This document shows, piece after piece, positions 7,539 through 14,845 of a DNA stretch of 21,924 nucleotides. The DNA is from a virus, in the IMG/VR virus record IMGVR_UViG_3300001679_000112, positions 1 through 21,924 of that record. One strand, written 5' to 3'. The notes beneath the pieces were generated by a model. It ran no database searches and was not told the DNA's origin. It saw only the letters and a list, made by a program, of their open reading frames with translations. Within the stretch, counting starts at the first letter, position 1; each line of letters starts with the position of its first letter. The position numbers were made by a program, and so were the translations under genes.

Positions 7539-7731
7539 TATATTCTACATAAGGACTAAAGACGGTACGGAGATTGCTGTATTTGATTTAGAGGTAGGTG
7601 AAGATGAAATATCGTATAGTTATAATGCTGTAGAAGAAGATATAAAGTCTGAACCTTATGAAGATGAAGTTCAGGTAATATTATCTAAAATTATAACAGA
7701 AAGAATGATGAAAGAGAGGGAAACTGGTTGA
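7528..7731 (+). CDS. Small acidic hypothetical protein upstream of gene 41
   Basis: The 67-residue product is acidic, with a beta-rich first half (FYIRTKDGTEIAVFDLEV) and a helical second half ending in ERMMKERETG. It has no recognised motif. Its TGA stop is nested in the TTG start of the helicase gene (TTGA), so the two are translationally coupled. T4-like cyanophages, as I recall, also have a short gene between uvsX and 41, so position supports it being real. The function is unknown. Confidence 0.6.
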   Translation: MTSDIFYIRTKDGTEIAVFDLEVGEDEISYSYNAVEEDIKSEPYEDEVQVILSKIITERMMKERETG

Positions 7732-8837
7732 GTATTGAAAACACGATTCTATCGAATCTAATATATAATGAAGACTATGCTAGAAAGGTAATTGTATTCT
7801 TAAAAGACGATTACTTTCAGAATCATAGTGATAAAAATGTCTTTAGTGAAATACAAACTTTCTACGCAAAGTATAATTCTGTACCCACTAAAGAAGCATT
7901 AACAATTGCTATTGACGGAAGAGACGATTTAAGTTCTACTGATTATGAAGAAACTTCGGCACTAGTAGGTTCGTTAAAAGAAACAGAAAGTAACGAAGAA
8001 TGGTTGCTTGATGAGACTGAAAAGTTCTGTAAAGATAAAGCAGTTTATAATGCTATCATGGAATCAATTAGTATTATTGATGACGAGGAAAATAAACAAC
8101 AGTCTGAGGGTTCAATCCCTGAGTTATTATCAACAGCATTAGCAGTATCTTTTGATACTCATATTGGTCACGACTTCTTAGATAATGCTGAAGAACGTTT
8201 TGAGTTTTATCAACGTAAAGAGGAACGTATTCCTTTTGATATTGAATATCTTAATAAGATTACTAAGGGTGGTGTTCCTCGTAAAACGTTAAACATCCTA
8301 ATGGCAGGAACTGGTGTAGGTAAAACGATTGGTATGTGTCATATGGCAGCGTCAAATCTCACTATGGGTAAAAATGTATTATACATTACTGCTGAGATGG
8401 CAGAGGAACGTATTGCTGAACGTATTGATGCTAATCTAATGGACGTAGAAGTTGACTCTCTTGTTGATTTATCATTTGAACGATATTCTAAAAAGATTGC
8501 AGCGATTCAATCTAAAACAAAAGGTAAGTTAATTGTTAAAGAATATCCTACATCAACTGCCCATGCTGGTCACTTTAGACACCTATTAAAAGAATTAGCA
8601 CTTAAAAAGAACTTTATGCCTGATATCATTTATATTGATTATTTGAATATTTGTGCTTCTCAAAGGTTAAATGGTGCTAATAACGTAAACAGTTATACAT
8701 ACGTTAAGGCAATTGCCGAAGAATTAAGGGGTCTTGCTGTTGAATTTAATGTTCCAGTATGGTCTGCTACACAAGTTAATCGTTCTGGTTTACTTCTGAG
8801 TCGTTTGGTCTACCAGCAACTGCTGACTTATTCCTAG
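7728..8837 (+). CDS. 41: gp41-type replicative DNA helicase, N-terminal and ATPase part (frameshifted)
   Basis: This is the DnaB-family 5'-3' helicase of T4-like phages. The TTG start at 7728 follows an AGAGAGGG site and overlaps the previous stop. Residues 1-150 are the N-terminal helical domain. The RecA-like domain carries Walker A GTGVGKT at 194-200 and Walker B IIYIDYLNI with Asp304. Homology with T4 gp41 runs through ATQVNRSG at 347-354. After that this frame gives 15 unrelated residues and a stop at 8835. The true continuation (SESFGLPATAD) lies in the -1 frame from 8795. As read, the protein lacks the last DNA-binding loop and the arginine-finger region, so it should not be an active hexameric helicase unless the frame is restored. 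Confidence 0.9.
   Translation: MSIENTILSNLIYNEDYARKVIVFLKDDYFQNHSDKNVFSEIQTFYAKYNSVPTKEALTIAIDGRDDLSSTDYEETSALVGSLKETESNEEWLLDETEKFCKDKAVYNAIMESISIIDDEENKQQSEGSIPELLSTALAVSFDTHIGHDFLDNAEERFEFYQRKEERIPFDIEYLNKITKGGVPRKTLNILMAGTGVGKTIGMCHMAASNLTMGKNVLYITAEMAEERIAERIDANLMDVEVDSLVDLSFERYSKKIAAIQSKTKGKLIVKEYPTSTAHAGHFRHLLKELALKKNFMPDIIYIDYLNICASQRLNGANNVNSYTYVKAIAEELRGLAVEFNVPVWSATQVNRSGLLLSRLVYQQLLTYS
8787..8797 (+). other. Frameshift and short deletion junction in gene 41
   Basis: The 0-frame reads Gly at 8787-8789. The -1 frame continues with Phe (8789-8791), Thr, Ser (8795-8797), then the conserved ESFGLPATAD. As I recall T4 gp41, about a dozen residues lie between RSG and ESAGLPATAD; only about three are present here even with the frame corrected. 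One event removing roughly 27-30 bases, not a multiple of three, would explain both the lost loop and the lost frame. A sequencing or assembly artefact is equally compatible. Confidence 0.75.
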
Positions 8838-8878
8838 CATTAATTCAGACTGAAGAATTACAAGAATTAAATCAAGTA

Positions 8879-9091
8879 ATGGTGAAACAATTGAAGAATC
8901 GTTATGGTGATGAAAACTTAAACAAACGATTTGTTATTGGTATTAACAAAGCAAAAATGAAATGGTATGACGTCGAACAAGATGCTCAATCAGGTATAAT
9001 GGGTAATTCTGATAAAGAAGACTTTGAAGAATCAGTTTTTACTAGCAAAGGGAGCAAGAATAAAAACGCATTCAAAGACTTCAAAGTGTAA
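8879..9091 (+). CDS. 41: gp41 helicase C-terminal fragment, out of frame
   Basis: From 8795 this frame encodes the conserved end of gp41: SESFGLPATAD, then a TEELQEL helix, KQLKNRYGD and GINKAKMKW, which carry the arginine-finger and core strands of the RecA-like fold. The only in-frame ATG is at 8879, has no Shine-Dalgarno, and lies inside the conserved domain, so it is unlikely to be an independent gene. The entry gives that formal start; the homologous segment begins at 8795. It ends KDFKV, close to the promoter region before 9134. Joined with 7728-8789 it would give a protein of about 454 residues, compared with 475 in T4. Confidence 0.8.
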   Translation: MVKQLKNRYGDENLNKRFVIGINKAKMKWYDVEQDAQSGIMGNSDKEDFEESVFTSKGSKNKNAFKDFKV

Positions 9092-9133: not shown

Positions 9134-10348
9134 ATGAAATCTTTTAAGTCGTACCTTTCCGAAGAAAAACTGACTCATCTTGAGCACGTCGAAGACGCTA
9201 TCTTTGACTTCGGTGTGTCTGGTGCTAAACAGGCTCTTACCATACTTAACGACGTTGCCCATTCTTTAGAAGGACATTCTAAAAAGTCTGTTAATATTCA
9301 AGCAAAAGTAGATGGTGCTCCGGCAGTAATTGCTGGTATCAATCCGGAGAACGGTAAGTTCTTTGTTGGTACAAAGGCATTATTCAACAAAACCCCTAAA
9401 ATCAATTACACAAATGCTGATATTGATAAAAATCATCCTGGAGGATTAGGGGATAAGTTAAAGGTCGCACTCAAAGAATTCCCTAAGATGGGACTTAAAG
9501 GGGTTTATCAAGGTGACTTTATGTTTACTTCTGATGAGTTAAAGAAAGAAACCATTGACGGTGACAACTATATTACATTCACTCCAAATACTATTACATA
9601 CGCAATACCTGCCGATTCCGATTTAGCAAAAACTGTATTAAAATCTAAAGTAGGTGTTATCTGGCATACAACATATACTGGCAAAACTATTGCCGATTTG
9701 TCTGCTCAATTTAAAATAAGTCTATCTTCATTTAAACGTCAAAAAGATGTTTGGTTCACTGATACTAATTTTGTAGATGCTTCGGGTACTGCTACATTTA
9801 CTGTAAAAGAATTAGGTGAAATTAAGAAAAAACTAAATCACGCAAATATGGAATTAAAGAAATTGAATACTAAAGATATGGGTATTCTATTTGGTAAAAC
9901 TGAAATTGCTAAAATGGTTAAAATTTATATCAACGGTCAAGTTAGAAAGGGTGAAAGGTTTTCTAATAAACAGAAAGCAGTTGCTACTTTCATTGATTTT
10001 ATCCGTTCTGATTATGAGAAGAAGATCTCTAAATTAAAATCAGTTAAAGGTAAGGACAAAAAGAAAAAACAATTAGACGACTTTACAAAACAACTACGTT
10101 CGGTTGCTGGTACATTTGCCCACACATTAGAGTGGCATAATGATGTAATTGATATCAAAATGATGATTGTTAAGAAGTTAGAAAAGGTTAATCAAATACC
10201 AGCATTCGTTAAGACAGCAAACGGTTATAAAACAACAGGTCCAGAGGGTTTCGTTGCTATTGACACTTTGTCTAACAGTGCAGTTAAACTAGTCAATCGA
10301 TTGGAGTTTAGTAAAAATAACTTCAATGCGGTAAAGAGTTGGGGGTAA
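9134..10348 (+). CDS. Capsid-targeting-signal protein with ligase-like nucleotidyltransferase motifs
   Basis: The 404-residue protein opens with the shared signal MKSFKSYLSE, whose L-S-E at 8-10 fits the T4 prohead-protease consensus. The body shows the order of covalent nucleotidyltransferase (DNA/RNA ligase) motifs. Motif I is AKVDGAP with candidate nucleotidyl lysine Lys58. A motif III-like YQGDF lies at 125-129, motif IV EGFVA at 371-375, and motif V AVKLVN with Lys385. Residues 310-330 are very basic (KGKDKKKKQ). I believe this family is DUF6267 in databases, but I cannot confirm that. The inferred role is a packaged nucleic-acid ligase or related AMP/GMP-transferring enzyme delivered at infection. 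It lacks a recognisable OB-fold, so substrate and activity are uncertain. Confidence 0.75.
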   Translation: MKSFKSYLSEEKLTHLEHVEDAIFDFGVSGAKQALTILNDVAHSLEGHSKKSVNIQAKVDGAPAVIAGINPENGKFFVGTKALFNKTPKINYTNADIDKNHPGGLGDKLKVALKEFPKMGLKGVYQGDFMFTSDELKKETIDGDNYITFTPNTITYAIPADSDLAKTVLKSKVGVIWHTTYTGKTIADLSAQFKISLSSFKRQKDVWFTDTNFVDASGTATFTVKELGEIKKKLNHANMELKKLNTKDMGILFGKTEIAKMVKIYINGQVRKGERFSNKQKAVATFIDFIRSDYEKKISKLKSVKGKDKKKKQLDDFTKQLRSVAGTFAHTLEWHNDVIDIKMMIVKKLEKVNQIPAFVKTANGYKTTGPEGFVAIDTLSNSAVKLVNRLEFSKNNFNAVKSWG

Positions 10349-10349
10349 T

Positions 10350-11702
10350 ATGAAACGATTTAGTCATTATTTAACTGAAACTGCTCTATTAAGTGAGGGG
10401 TCGTTTGCTAAATTTAAAGTTGGAGAGCAACCTAAGTTTTCAGATAGAGATAAAGAAAAGATTGGAAAACGTCTTTCCGATTATGTGAAGATGAACCCTA
10501 ACGATATTCAAGACATTCATTATAGCGCAGTCGGCAAACAAGTAAAATCATTCTTAAATACGAATCAAACGGAAATTAAAGTTACTGATAAGAAAGTATT
10601 AAAACGACTTGCTAAATACATGTCTATATTTACAGTAGACGTAAATGGTGATAATGTTAAGGTGACGCAAGGAAAGGGTAAAGTTCTATTCAAATATAGT
10701 TCTGGTCGTGGTTTTTTCTTTCAGTCTGAAAAGAGTGTTAGTAATCCAACTACGGCACAACAAGAAACAGGAACAATCAAATTCTTAGAGTTCTATCAAT
10801 ACAATAGTGGCAAGCATCCTACAAGAAACCAAATAAACGATATTGTTGGTTTTATTTTTGACGAGAATTGGTATAAATCTTTCATCAATCATACAAACGC
10901 AATAACGTCTGTTATTAAACTTAATAAGAAACATAAGATAGAATTAGACAGTGATGATTCTTCGATCGGTCAAGTTATATTTAAAATGCTGAAGAAGAAT
11001 CATAGTTTTAAACAAAGTAACGATAACTGGAACCCTGCTGATATTTGGATTTACAATAGTTCATCAAAGTCTAATATATTAACTGAATTAGATTCTGCCG
11101 AATCCGTAACTGAATTCAACATAATAATGAAGAAGTTATTCAATTCTGGCGACTTGATGGGTATATCGTTAAAGAAATCAGTTAAACGAACAACAGCAAA
11201 AACGATTGACACTTCTAATGTTAAACCTTTTGCGTTAAAGTTTGCTCCTACCGTTTATGACGTTAAGAATACATATTGGGACATTAAGACTTCTGGATAC
11301 CCTAAAGGGTTTATGATAAGAGCTAGGGCAAAGGCTGCAGCTATTACTAAGGTGGGTGATATTAAAATTTACTTTGAAGGAAAAATTGATAAGAGTTCAG
11401 AATTTCTTGGTGCCATTGCGGCTCCACTGGTTAAAACTCCAGGATCTGATACTGTTAATTTTGAGGTAGATATAGATACTATTAAATCTATGGCATCTAA
11501 AGTTTCTGCTTCAGGTCCTATGACGTTTAAAAACATGGATATGTTAGAGGAGATGGATGACATCAAACTAATTTATGTATATGTTATGATGAGATACGCA
11601 TCAGTCATTTATAAGTCAGGAAACGATAATCTTAAAAAACTTGCTATGTCTGGTTATAAGTTAAATGACTATTCTTCTATTCACTACAAAGTAGGAGGAT
11701 GA
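10350..11702 (+). CDS. Capsid-targeting-signal protein, possible PD-(D/E)XK nuclease
   Basis: The 450-residue protein starts MKRFSHYLTE (L-T-E at 8-10), with a second possible cut L-S-E at 14-16. It begins two bases after the previous stop, behind a G-rich site. The centre contains an acidic residue in a helix (Glu139, QETGT), then NPADIWIY with Asp231, then GISLKK at 271-276. That spacing and pattern (helix E, strand D, strand x-L-K) resembles PD-(D/E)XK restriction-type nucleases, but I have no alignment and the second acidic residue is not obvious. The C-terminal 130 residues look alpha/beta and unrelated to anything I know. A packaged nuclease is a hypothesis; a non-enzymatic internal protein is the alternative. 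Confidence 0.65.
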   Translation: MKRFSHYLTETALLSEGSFAKFKVGEQPKFSDRDKEKIGKRLSDYVKMNPNDIQDIHYSAVGKQVKSFLNTNQTEIKVTDKKVLKRLAKYMSIFTVDVNGDNVKVTQGKGKVLFKYSSGRGFFFQSEKSVSNPTTAQQETGTIKFLEFYQYNSGKHPTRNQINDIVGFIFDENWYKSFINHTNAITSVIKLNKKHKIELDSDDSSIGQVIFKMLKKNHSFKQSNDNWNPADIWIYNSSSKSNILTELDSAESVTEFNIIMKKLFNSGDLMGISLKKSVKRTTAKTIDTSNVKPFALKFAPTVYDVKNTYWDIKTSGYPKGFMIRARAKAAAITKVGDIKIYFEGKIDKSSEFLGAIAAPLVKTPGSDTVNFEVDIDTIKSMASKVSASGPMTFKNMDMLEEMDDIKLIYVYVMMRYASVIYKSGNDNLKKLAMSGYKLNDYSSIHYKVGG

Positions 11703-11999: not shown

Positions 12000-12308
12000 A
12001 TGAAAGTGATATTAACATTTGAAGACTTCTGTAATATTCTCGAAAAGAAAGAGAAGAAGGAAGGCTGCAAGTGGTGCCATAAGCGTGACTATAAAGACGA
12101 GTATGAGAAGTTTCAATCTTCTGAAAAAATGAAGAATTATCGTGGTGAGTTAAATAAATACAGACGTGACCACGGTGTGTATGGTAATGGTGATGGTTTA
12201 GATGCATCGCATAAAAATGGTAAAATAGTTGGATTTGAAAAGGCATCTGTAAATAGAGGTCGTGCTGAGAAATCTAGGTTAAAGGGATCTAAAAGGAAAA
12301 AGAGATGA
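12000..12308 (+). CDS. Small basic protein with HNH/treble-clef-like features
   Basis: ATG 12000 is chosen over the upstream ATG at 11925 because the latter lies in the previous gene and adds sequence of no family character. The 102-residue product has a hydrophobic start with I-L-E at 13-15, a possible diverged packaging signal. A CKWC pair near residue 23 follows, then the block YRGELNKYRRDHG followed by YGNGDGLDASHKNG and a basic tail (RLKGSKRKKR). I recall this central block as conserved across phages; the Cys pair plus Asp-x-x-His suggests a zinc-bound HNH or treble-clef fold, unproven. There is no Shine-Dalgarno; reinitiation four bases after the previous stop is likely. Its stop overlaps the next ATG (ATGA). 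Confidence 0.6.
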   Translation: MKVILTFEDFCNILEKKEKKEGCKWCHKRDYKDEYEKFQSSEKMKNYRGELNKYRRDHGVYGNGDGLDASHKNGKIVGFEKASVNRGRAEKSRLKGSKRKKR

Positions 12309-12883
12309 AATCGTTTAAACAACATCTAGAAGAAGCAAAGAATAAACCAGTCGTATTTACGTTTGGTCGGTTCAATCCTATTACAAAAGGACATGGTGCT
12401 CTAATTGATTTTGTTGTAAAATCTGCTAAAGGCGGAGAAGGAATGATATTCACTTCTCAAAGTCAAGATGCTAAAAAGAATCCTTTGGATTATAAGACTA
12501 AGACTAAGTATTTGAAAAAGTTCTTTCCAAAAGCAACGATTGTTAAAAATACTTCACTTAAAACTCCATTTGATATTTTAAGATGGTTATCAGACCAAGG
12601 GTATAAAGATGTGACTATGGTTGTTGGTGGTGATAGAGTTGCTGAATTTGAAAAAAGAATGAGACCATACGTTAATCATAAAGACCCTAAGAAATCATAC
12701 GACTTTGATAAATTTGAAGTTGTGAATTCTGGAGCAAGAGTTCCTGGTGTTTCTGGTACTGATATGAGAAATCATGTTAAAAACGATAGTGTTGACGAAT
12801 TTAAAAAGGGATTACCTACAGGTACATCGACTAAAGATGCTGAGGCATTTTTTAACGCAGTTAAGAAAGGAATGAAGTTATGA
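12305..12883 (+). CDS. NMN adenylyltransferase/cytidylyltransferase-like enzyme with capsid-targeting signal
   Basis: The signal MKSFKQHLEE (L-E-E at 8-10) is followed at once by a nucleotidyltransferase domain of the HIGH superfamily. The stretch FTFGRFNPITKGH at 18-30 holds the nucleotide-binding T-x-G-H motif (Thr27, His30), VVGGDR lies at 106-111, and SGTDMR at 150-155 corresponds to the I-S-S-T-x-[IV]-R motif. Such enzymes join ATP or CTP to a phosphate group, as in NAD or phospholipid-precursor synthesis. Its size (192 residues) fits NadM/NadD-like proteins. The signal suggests the enzyme is packaged rather than made only in the infected cell (inference). The true substrate cannot be told from sequence. 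It overlaps both neighbours by four bases. Confidence 0.85.
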   Translation: MKSFKQHLEEAKNKPVVFTFGRFNPITKGHGALIDFVVKSAKGGEGMIFTSQSQDAKKNPLDYKTKTKYLKKFFPKATIVKNTSLKTPFDILRWLSDQGYKDVTMVVGGDRVAEFEKRMRPYVNHKDPKKSYDFDKFEVVNSGARVPGVSGTDMRNHVKNDSVDEFKKGLPTGTSTKDAEAFFNAVKKGMKL

Positions 12884-13158
12884 AGTCGTTTAGACAACAT
12901 TTAACTGAAGACAAACTGAAGTGGAAAAAGTCTAAGGAAGTTTCAAAAGAGAATTTGAAACTTATTAACTTAAAGAAATTCACTGCTGAGATAGAATGGA
13001 CATCAGGTAAATATACTATTGTTAAAGTAGGTGGAACACTTTCATACAAATACTATATTATGATAAACGATGGTAAAGTGCGTCCATCGGGTCATGGTAA
13101 AGGTGCACAAACATATTCAAAATTAAACATGGCAAAATTTTACTTCGAGGAATTATAA
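12880..13158 (+). CDS. Small basic protein with capsid-targeting signal
   Basis: The 92-residue product starts MKSFRQHLTE (L-T-E at 8-10). The remainder is Lys-rich and looks like a compact beta fold: alternating hydrophobics in TAEIEWTSGKYTIVKVGG and YKYYIMIND, then SGHGKGAQTYSK. There are no catalytic motifs. After cleavage the mature part would be about 82 residues, similar to T4 internal proteins in size and charge. It overlaps the upstream gene by four bases (ATGA) and shares one base with the next ATG (TAATG), so it is in a tightly coupled translation unit. Confidence 0.7.
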   Translation: MKSFRQHLTEDKLKWKKSKEVSKENLKLINLKKFTAEIEWTSGKYTIVKVGGTLSYKYYIMINDGKVRPSGHGKGAQTYSKLNMAKFYFEEL

Positions 13159-13859
13159 TGAAATCTTTTAAGCAATGGTTAGATGAACGTACAAGAGCCT
13201 CTCAAGGAGGTCACAACGATTCTTGGACTGCTGATTTACTTAAACGACTTTTACCTAAGAAGTGGGTACATAAGTTTAAACGAGCAGTACATGCCGAAAG
13301 ATATAAAGCTGCTTTAAAGTTGTATCATGAGATGGTAAGAGCATATAATAGAGATCCTGATGCACAACAGTCTCCTGGCATGATGGTTATGAATCCTAAA
13401 GGATTAGCAATGGCAAAGGCTGCTCAGGCATTTGGATTATCTACTAAAGAATTTAAGAAAGTATTAGACCACAAAACAAGATACGAAGAAGTTGAACTTG
13501 AAGAAGAAATAACTAAGGTAGATTTATCTCAAGTTGAGAAGTTTGCTGATAAAATCTTTGCTAAAGTTGGTATTGATATTGAGTTTACTAGGCATTTCTT
13601 AGAGAGAGTTAATGATAAACGCAACGGAAAGGATATTACAGTTGGTGAATTAACTAGATTGTTCAAACAAACATATAAGAAACACGGTAAGAAGATTGCT
13701 AAAATGGGTGACGATGCTGAAGCAGTATTACACGACTTACAAACAGATATTAATATGCCGTTTGTGTTACAGTGGGATGGTAAAGAGTTTGATTTGATTG
13801 CTAAGACAATCATGAGAAAGAAAGATTTCAAAACTAACGATCCGAAATTGAAAGTATAG
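13158..13859 (+). CDS. Two-domain protein with capsid-targeting signal and RelE/DUF4258-like C-terminal domain
   Basis: The signal is MKSFKQWLDE (L-D-E at 8-10). Residues 11-108 form a basic, mostly helical domain. An acidic linker at 109-118 contains L-E-E at 114-116, a second potential prohead-protease site exactly between domains. Residues 120-233 form the second domain. It includes FTRHFLERVNDKRNGKDIT (143-161), which resembles the HA/HF-x-x-R core of DUF4258/BrnT-like RelE-fold toxins, and later a strand-rich end (MPFVLQWDGKEFDLIAKTIM). I recall this second domain as conserved in T4-like phages. An mRNA-interferase-like role is a hypothesis; the family match is from memory. It has a GAGGAATT site and a TAATG junction with the previous gene. 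Confidence 0.75.
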   Translation: MKSFKQWLDERTRASQGGHNDSWTADLLKRLLPKKWVHKFKRAVHAERYKAALKLYHEMVRAYNRDPDAQQSPGMMVMNPKGLAMAKAAQAFGLSTKEFKKVLDHKTRYEEVELEEEITKVDLSQVEKFADKIFAKVGIDIEFTRHFLERVNDKRNGKDITVGELTRLFKQTYKKHGKKIAKMGDDAEAVLHDLQTDINMPFVLQWDGKEFDLIAKTIMRKKDFKTNDPKLKV

Positions 13860-13876: not shown

Positions 13877-14845
13877 ATGAAATCATTTAAACAACATATT
13901 AATGAAGAGAAACTATTTGAGGAATTCCTTGAAGAGAAACTCATCATGTTATCTAATGGTAAGAAATACGGTCAAATTGTATTCTTAGCAGGCGGTGCAG
14001 GTTCGGGTAAAGGTTTTGCTTCTACTAACTTTATGCAGAAAGAACTGTTTAAGGTACGTGACGTTGATGAATGGAAGAAAACATTCATGGCAATTGCTGA
14101 TATACATTCCAACCCTGAAAAATATGGTAAGATGCAAAAGGCTGGTTCTAAAATCCCTAAAGGGGAGTATGCCAAAGTTAAAGGTTTGAACCTAAAGAAA
14201 CCAGGCGATGTTGAAAAATTACACTTCTTTATTAAGAAATTAGGTCTTAAAGATAAGACATTAGATATGATGTTAAGTCAAATGAAGAATAAGACAACAT
14301 TGCCAAACATTATGTTTGATATTACAGCAAAAGATACTAAAGACATTGGTCAGTTTATGCCACGCTTATTAAAGGCAGGATATAACCCAGCAAACATTCA
14401 TTTAGTATGGGTATTGACTGATTATAATATCGCAATTAAACAAAATGCAGAGAGGTCAAGAGTAGTTCCTTCTGATATTATGTTGGCAACCCATAAGGGT
14501 GCTTCGGAAACAGTTTATAAATATGTAACAGGTGCTGGTAGAAGAATGGCAATCAATGGTGAGATACATGTTATTTTGAATAATAAACAAAATACTATTA
14601 TGTTTGAACCATCGGGTGCTGATAGAACTTCTAATATGAAGACGAAAGGCGAAGACGAAGATACAAACAAAATGGTAACAAAAGTTAATACTGCTGTCGT
14701 TAAAGACTTCACATATTTGACATTAAAGAAACGTGGTAAACCTATGACGTCGGAGAAGAAAGTTATGAAATCTCTGTTTGATTGGGTAGTTGATAACATC
14801 CCAAAAAGTGATTTCCAAAAGGCACTATCGGATACAGTTAAGTAA
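13877..14845 (+). CDS. Zeta-toxin-like P-loop kinase with capsid-targeting signal
   Basis: The 322-residue protein starts MKSFKQHINE (I-N-E at 8-10), with a second candidate cut L-E-E at 18-20. Walker A follows as FLAGGAGSGKGF with Lys45. Further on, NIHLVWVLTDYNIAI and NAERSRVVPSDIM (about 178-202) resemble the strand and arginine-bearing lid of zeta-toxin/polynucleotide-kinase proteins. Zeta toxins phosphorylate UDP-N-acetylglucosamine or related nucleotides; other relatives phosphorylate nucleic-acid ends, and I cannot decide between them. No antitoxin-like partner is adjacent. The late-type promoter box directly upstream and the lack of a Shine-Dalgarno fit late, possibly leaderless, expression for packaging. 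Confidence 0.8.
   Translation: MKSFKQHINEEKLFEEFLEEKLIMLSNGKKYGQIVFLAGGAGSGKGFASTNFMQKELFKVRDVDEWKKTFMAIADIHSNPEKYGKMQKAGSKIPKGEYAKVKGLNLKKPGDVEKLHFFIKKLGLKDKTLDMMLSQMKNKTTLPNIMFDITAKDTKDIGQFMPRLLKAGYNPANIHLVWVLTDYNIAIKQNAERSRVVPSDIMLATHKGASETVYKYVTGAGRRMAINGEIHVILNNKQNTIMFEPSGADRTSNMKTKGEDEDTNKMVTKVNTAVVKDFTYLTLKKRGKPMTSEKKVMKSLFDWVVDNIPKSDFQKALSDTVK

Follow-up and report, generated by a model that had tools for sequence, protein, structure and literature searches.

The locus considered here raises the question of what is made by a viral gene whose product resembles a ligase in its motifs but falls into a protein family that has no assigned function. The gene lies in a stretch of 21,924 nucleotides (IMG/VR record IMGVR_UViG_3300001679_000112, positions 1 to 21,924; referred to as the window), a fragment of a T4-like phage with homologues of DNA polymerase gp43, UvsX, gp41, and gp61, gene names being based on the translations as read and on synteny with annotated relatives. 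The gp41-like helicase gene (7728-9090) is broken by a 28-base gap relative to the near-identical contigs L001 and L002, where it forms one open frame; either a lesion in this strain or an error of assembly may be the cause. A preliminary description had read the gene of interest as a ligase-like nucleotidyltransferase hidden in a family of unknown function and bearing a packaging tag. It is described here as follows:

9134..10348, plus strand: DUF6267 protein of 404 aa, a ligase-like covalent nucleotidyltransferase and probably an RNA ligase (PF19782; models and fold comparison; mutual exclusion with RNA ligases).

The family placement is confirmed by a full-length match to the profile PF19782 (DUF6267; E 5.4e-108, 362 bits against a gathering cut-off of 27), a phage family without assigned function, and by membership in phrog_455, which PHROGs lists under 'unknown function.' A literature search found no mention of DUF6267, but its fold may nonetheless have been noted by someone. 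A total of 471 phage records contain relatives, and nearly all of these are T4-like cyanobacterial phages, with a minority of phages of Pelagibacter, Methylophilales, and Stenotrophomonas; many IMG/VR contigs contain relatives as well. Nearly every T4-like virus of marine cyanobacteria carries DUF6267: among T4-like cyanophage records named 'Synechococcus' it was found 371 times vs. 375 for UvsX, and among those named 'Cyanophage' 61 times vs. 61. Matches in GTDB genomes (L290-L321), labeled with many bacterial and archaeal species, are almost all on MAG or bin contigs and probably represent phage contigs binned with their hosts.

The preliminary description had assigned KVDG, YQGDF, EGFVA, and AVKLVN to motifs I, III, IV, and V of DNA/RNA ligases and capping enzymes. 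Their positions in the protein (58-61, 125-129, 371-375, and 383-388) proved exact, and conservation was followed in two alignments, one of 63 sequences with 32 invariant columns and one of 56 sequences with 26, the latter extending down to 29-30% identity to its first sequence and including the short forms typified by phage S-SM1. K58, D60, G61, Q126, D128, E371, G372, V374, and K385 are invariant in both, as are K81, H178, and R389, which had been missed at first. Together these residues follow the order of motifs I, Ia, III, IIIa, IV, and V of the covalent nucleotidyltransferases:

9305..9316, plus strand: motif I, K58-V-D-G, with K58 as the predicted nucleotidyl-lysine (K58, D60, and G61 invariant).
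9374..9376, plus strand: K81 at the motif Ia position (invariant; paired with Rnl1 K119 by hhalign, below significance).
9509..9517, plus strand: motif III-like Q126-G-D128 (Q126 and D128 invariant; within strand 124-132 of the model).
9662..9667, plus strand: motif IIIa-like W177-H178 (H178 invariant; W or F precedes it in most members).
10244..10255, plus strand: motif IV, E371-G-F-V374 (E371, G372, and V374 invariant).
10286..10300, plus strand: motif V, K385-L-V-N-R389 (K385 and R389 invariant; K385 falls on Rnl2 225 and NgrRnl 326 by alignment end points).

By motif context, K81 corresponds to K119 of T4 Rnl1 and R55 of T4 Rnl2, GDF resembles the motif III GEF of Rnl2, and the aromatic residue with H178 sits at Rnl2 F119-D120 (motif IIIa). 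The features by which the superfamily is recognized are thus found in the sequence, namely a KxDG motif I followed in order by motif III with its acidic residue, motif IV as EG(x)V, and the motif V lysine. There are two departures: the motif III glutamate is replaced by aspartate, and the second motif V lysine by valine.

Structure prediction and a fold search including T4 Rnl1, T4 Rnl2, and DNA ligases had been proposed as a check of this reading. Two AlphaFold models were obtained, model 1 for the window protein on 63 sequences (pLDDT 83.9, pTM 0.77) and model 2 for a relative of another clade that is 38% identical (pLDDT 90.4, pTM 0.86). With plain Foldseek, neither model had a significant match in the PDB (the best entries, at E 0.18 and 0.03, are unrelated proteins), and a Foldseek search of viral models retrieved chiefly DUF6267 relatives, with known ligases absent at E up to 0.001. 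VIA-align, applied as a second look at candidates from Foldseek, placed the Naegleria gruberi RNA ligase NgrRnl at the top for model 1 (Z 8.9 over 186 residues, 4.0 A), then T4 Rnl2 (Z 8.2 over 170 residues, 3.6 A), T4 Rnl1 (Z 7.7), and DNA ligases (about 7); ligases occupied 48 of the first 50 rows, the remaining two being helices-only matches. For model 2, NgrRnl again led (Z 8.7 over 180 residues, 3.8 A), followed by Rnl1 (7.6), Rnl2 (7.3), Trypanosoma brucei REL1 (7.1), and human LIG1 (6.8). Both models therefore match ligases best, with RNA ligases ranked above DNA ligases in each case, and an unrelated fold did not emerge. Z scores of about 8-9 are modest and only moderately over background, but both models recover one and the same superfamily across its subfamilies. 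In both models the motif V lysine falls on residues NgrRnl 326, Rnl2 225, and LIG1 744, and in model 2 also on LIG4 449, a mapping made from alignment end points on the assumption that the last few residues are gap-free. Residue 225 is a lysine in the T4 Rnl2 sequence, and we take the other three to be motif V lysines as well. This agreement with several known ligases bears out the motif assignment.

The models also account for two further points of the preliminary description, the missing OB-fold and the long distance between motifs III and IV. No OB-fold is visible, as K385 is followed by 19 residues only and a single helix makes up the N-terminal part ahead of motif I. The distance is explained by a predicted helical insert:

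9803..10183, plus strand: helical insert of residues 224-350, lying between motifs IIIa and IV (predicted as five to six helices with high pLDDT; shorter in S-SM1-like forms).

A natural short form of about 320 aa (L204-L243; 324 aa in S-SM1) has lost residues mainly around this insert and kept the motif residues, and would be a handy minimal version for structure work. The structure comparison of both models thus upholds the proposal of a divergent, OB-less branch of ligase-type nucleotidyltransferases, and we consider it very likely that DUF6267 belongs to one.

Which nucleic acid such an enzyme would seal was approached through the distribution of known ligases among 17 hand-picked, related T4-like genomes, with no phylogenetic correction. 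Ten carry DUF6267 (HTVC008M, S-SM1, Syn1, S-PM2, Melnitz-3, DLP6, C48C1, P-HM2, DSL-LC02, and S-CRM01) and seven lack it (T4, KVP40, RB49, Aeh1, Acinetobacter 133, phiM12, and Cr30). RNA ligases of the families PF09414 (Rnl2-type) and PF09511 (Rnl1-type) were found in 0/10 of the former vs. 7/7 of the latter; Fisher's exact test gives 5e-5, which is only a guide because the genomes were hand-chosen and are related. In tblastn searches with T4 Rnl2 or Rnl1 as query, cyanophage names were likewise absent among the ten commonest listed. The distribution fits a functional replacement of Rnl1/Rnl2, in a sample that is small and non-independent. DNA ligases are distributed differently: all seven genomes lacking DUF6267 also have DNA ligase families, and among the ten carrying it the ATP-dependent DNA ligase PF01068 stands beside DUF6267 in DLP6 and S-CRM01, a DNA ligase family is absent from the other eight, and PF01653 occurs in none.

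These absences would fit another role, in which DUF6267 is the missing DNA ligase of cyanomyoviruses and replaces T4 gp30 at replication forks. Cyanomyoviruses have been described as devoid of g30 homologues, with the proviso that distant ones may be unrecognised (PMC2984593), and DUF6267 is one candidate for the distant ligases that this review left open. In the window, HTVC008M, Syn1, S-SM1, S-PM2, and Melnitz-3, moreover, the gene lies near gp43, uvsX, and gp41. DLP6 and S-CRM01, however, carry DUF6267 alongside a PF01068 DNA ligase, whereas RNA ligase families are missing from all ten genomes. DNA ligases also generally have an OB domain, which DUF6267 lacks; a head-packaging tag (see below) is odd on a replication enzyme; and RNA ligases outrank DNA ligases in both fold comparisons. 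We rank this role second, since two phages carry both DUF6267 and a DNA ligase, and regard it as unlikely. The co-occurrence and the exclusion from Rnl1/Rnl2 make RNA sealing likelier, if not decisively so, and it is the function toward which we lean.

The genes downstream of DUF6267 have to be considered as well:

10350..11702, plus strand: tagged neighbor (MKRFSHYLTE) of phrog_1462, unknown function (PHROGs, tag scan).
12305..12883, plus strand: tagged HIGH-type nucleotidyltransferase ('cytidyltransferase', T4-GC190 family; PF01467, E 2.8e-6).
12880..13158, plus strand: tagged small ORF (MKSFRQHLTE; tag scan).
13158..13859, plus strand: tagged ORF (MKSFKQWLDE; tag scan).
13877..14845, plus strand: tagged P-loop kinase-like ORF (MKSFKQHINE; GGAGSGKG) of phrog_5268 (Pfam, PHROGs, tag scan).

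A HIGH-type nucleotidyltransferase adjoins DUF6267 or is near it in many phages, phrog_455 spans both domains, and in S-PM2 the two are fused into a 591-aa polypeptide (L127 6983-8758). In some relatives a tagged HAD-like 'FDIDDTLF' protein, with weak Pfam support, is also found near DUF6267. The fusion could serve substrate channeling, e.g., in the regeneration of a dinucleotide cofactor, and such a partnership is what might be expected if DUF6267 did not ligate but transferred AMP or GMP onto an RNA end, a protein, or a small molecule. The loss of the second motif V lysine would agree with such a role, and capping enzymes belong to the same superfamily. Capping enzymes, however, use an OB domain with motif VI, which is absent from DUF6267, and the exclusion from RNA ligases points to sealing, so that we give non-ligating transfer only a slim chance. 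For an RNA-sealing DUF6267, the kinase-like, HIGH-type, and HAD-like neighbors, as far as they can be judged from their sequences, would fit an RNA healing-and-sealing set.

The shared N-termini of these proteins resemble the 10-aa capsid targeting sequence that T4 internal proteins carry at the N-terminus and that the prohead protease removes (PMC10229621, PMC3012670, PMC5694885). In DUF6267 of the window it takes the following form:

9134..9163, plus strand: N-terminal tag MKSFKSYLSE, capsid-targeting-sequence-like, with a predicted prohead protease cut after Glu10 (recurrence and strand statistics).

Six ORFs of the window are tagged, all between 9134 and 14845, and by chance the strict tag pattern would turn up in 1.7e-4 of random starts. 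Across 121 related contigs the tag occurs on 198/1397 plus-strand vs. 0/954 minus-strand ORFs, and with a looser pattern in 104/131 IMG/VR relatives of DUF6267 with an anchor. On the plus strand of these contigs (L001-L121) it is found on many unrelated proteins, among them HIGH nucleotidyltransferases, P-loop kinases, and HAD-like proteins, and on a possible PD-(D/E)XK nuclease at L036 3074 and L091 4182. It offers a simple pattern by which candidate head-packaged proteins in marine T4-like phages could be listed. Among named phages, DUF6267 is tagged in DLP6, Melnitz, and C48C1, and untagged in Syn1, S-PM2, S-SM1, P-HM2, DSL-LC02, and S-CRM01; in S-SM1 and DSL-LC02 the adjoining cytidylyltransferase is tagged instead. 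Since DUF6267 is untagged in several marine isolates, the tag is optional and lies outside the definition of the enzyme. Mass spectrometry of purified virions revealed the tagged S-SM1 cytidylyltransferase (T4-GC190 family, MKKFSAFLNEAER), and the accessible part of the same report does not mention DUF6267 among the virion proteins (PMC3037559). The packaging tag of the preliminary description is therefore real and recurrent, as borne out by the strand statistics and the published virion detection of the tagged neighbor family, and its presence makes head packaging of DUF6267 likely in the lineage of the window.

Given a capsid tag in many members and the altered motif III glutamate and second motif V lysine, one might suspect that an inactive nucleotidyltransferase fold has been co-opted to serve as a scaffold or internal head protein. 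This is very improbable, because K58, D60, K81, D128, E371, and K385 remain invariant down to about 30% identity, which implies catalysis, and because untagged members keep the same motif residues.

Sequence comparison in itself yielded no link to ligases. None was found for DUF6267 with phmmer and hmmsearch against the PDB or for the window protein in Pfam, PHROGs, and NCBIfam, and neither PF09414, PF09511, nor PF01068 matched the window protein or appeared in the Pfam listing for 56 members. Weak Pfam matches to SWI2_SNF2, DUF6294, and SpoIVA were rejected, as they were under the cut-off and lay in the insert or outside the motifs. With hhalign, a Rnl1 profile aligned motifs I, Ia, IV, and V in register at E 0.045, a value to be read against shuffled columns that score equally high; T4-type Rnl2 and gp30 profiles gave nothing, and removal of the insert left the comparisons with T4-type Rnl1, Rnl2, and gp30 likewise non-significant. 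That an unrelated fold merely happens to show the motifs in this order, as the lack of a significant link by Foldseek and sequence profiles might suggest, is nevertheless scarcely credible, because VIA-align recovered the same ligase list from two models with motif V in register.

DUF6267 is best explained, and in our judgment probably, as a divergent covalent nucleotidyltransferase that lacks an OB domain and joins the ends of nucleic acids, most likely of RNA, that replaces T4 Rnl1/Rnl2, and that is tagged in the lineage of the window. From the computed family assignment, motif invariance, fold class, exclusion pattern, and tag statistics we infer its activity, substrate, packaging, and timing as follows. 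Lys58 would be adenylated by ATP (or charged by another nucleotide donor), the AMP would move to a 5'-phosphate end, and attack by the 3'-OH would then close the break. The nucleotide and metals would be bound by K81, D128, H178, E371, and K385, and gripping of the substrate, in place of the missing OB or accessory domain, would fall to the helical insert. Kyanoviridae-type T4-like phages would employ DUF6267 in place of T4 Rnl1/Rnl2. In the lineage of the window, the tag would carry the protein into the prohead, where cleavage by the prohead protease is expected after Glu10. The enzyme would be delivered to the cell along with the DNA and could, immediately after entry as the preliminary description had proposed, reseal tRNAs or other RNAs that host nucleases have cleaved. 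A possible but doubtful extension is that the tagged cluster forms a head-packaged RNA-repair kit, in which the DUF6267 ligase, the P-loop kinase, the HIGH-type nucleotidyltransferase and, in related phages, a HAD-type phosphatase share the same tag and are delivered with the genome; if so, RNA healing and sealing would begin ahead of any phage gene expression. The T4-like cyanophages with DUF6267 are abundant marine viruses, and an RNA ligase in this family would fill a gap in their gene set, may explain the absence of a recognised RNA ligase, and would suggest that their hosts use RNA-cutting defences.

Several known systems can be compared with DUF6267. The T4 internal head proteins (IPI-III, Alt) share a short N-terminal tag of about 10 aa among several unrelated proteins, and the DUF6267 tag does likewise, with predicted removal by the protease. 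A nuclease inhibitor and an ADP-ribosyltransferase are among the known T4 internal proteins, but no ligase that we know of, and DUF6267, if an RNA ligase, may exemplify a ligase carried in the virus head. The phage RNA ligases T4 Rnl1 (gp63) and Rnl2 (gp24.1), which are absent from the DUF6267 phages tested, share the fold (Z 7.3-8.2) with the motif V lysine in register. Motif I is KxDG in Rnl1 and DUF6267 and KxHG in Rnl2, and motif IV reads EGYV in T4 vs. EGFV in DUF6267. In both T4 enzymes motif V is KxK and is followed by C-terminal domains, whereas DUF6267 has KxV and ends 19 residues after motif V. NgrRnl, of the Rnl5-type, is the best structural match of both models and shares the KxDG motif I, and its spacing from E312 to residue 326 equals the predicted motif IV-V spacing of DUF6267, 14 residues. 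It differs by its N-terminal OB domain and the lack of a large helical insert, and at 8-12% identity there is no significant sequence link. Human RLIG1 (C12orf29), an OB-less protein with the catalytic Lys57 in KX(D/H/N)G, was shown to be an RNA ligase after a structure-only match to NgrRnl (PMC9931718). RLIG1 is a vertebrate protein to which DUF6267 is likened by description, as OB-less and NgrRnl-like, and if DUF6267 is an RNA ligase, it would add an OB-less branch to the ligase superfamily.
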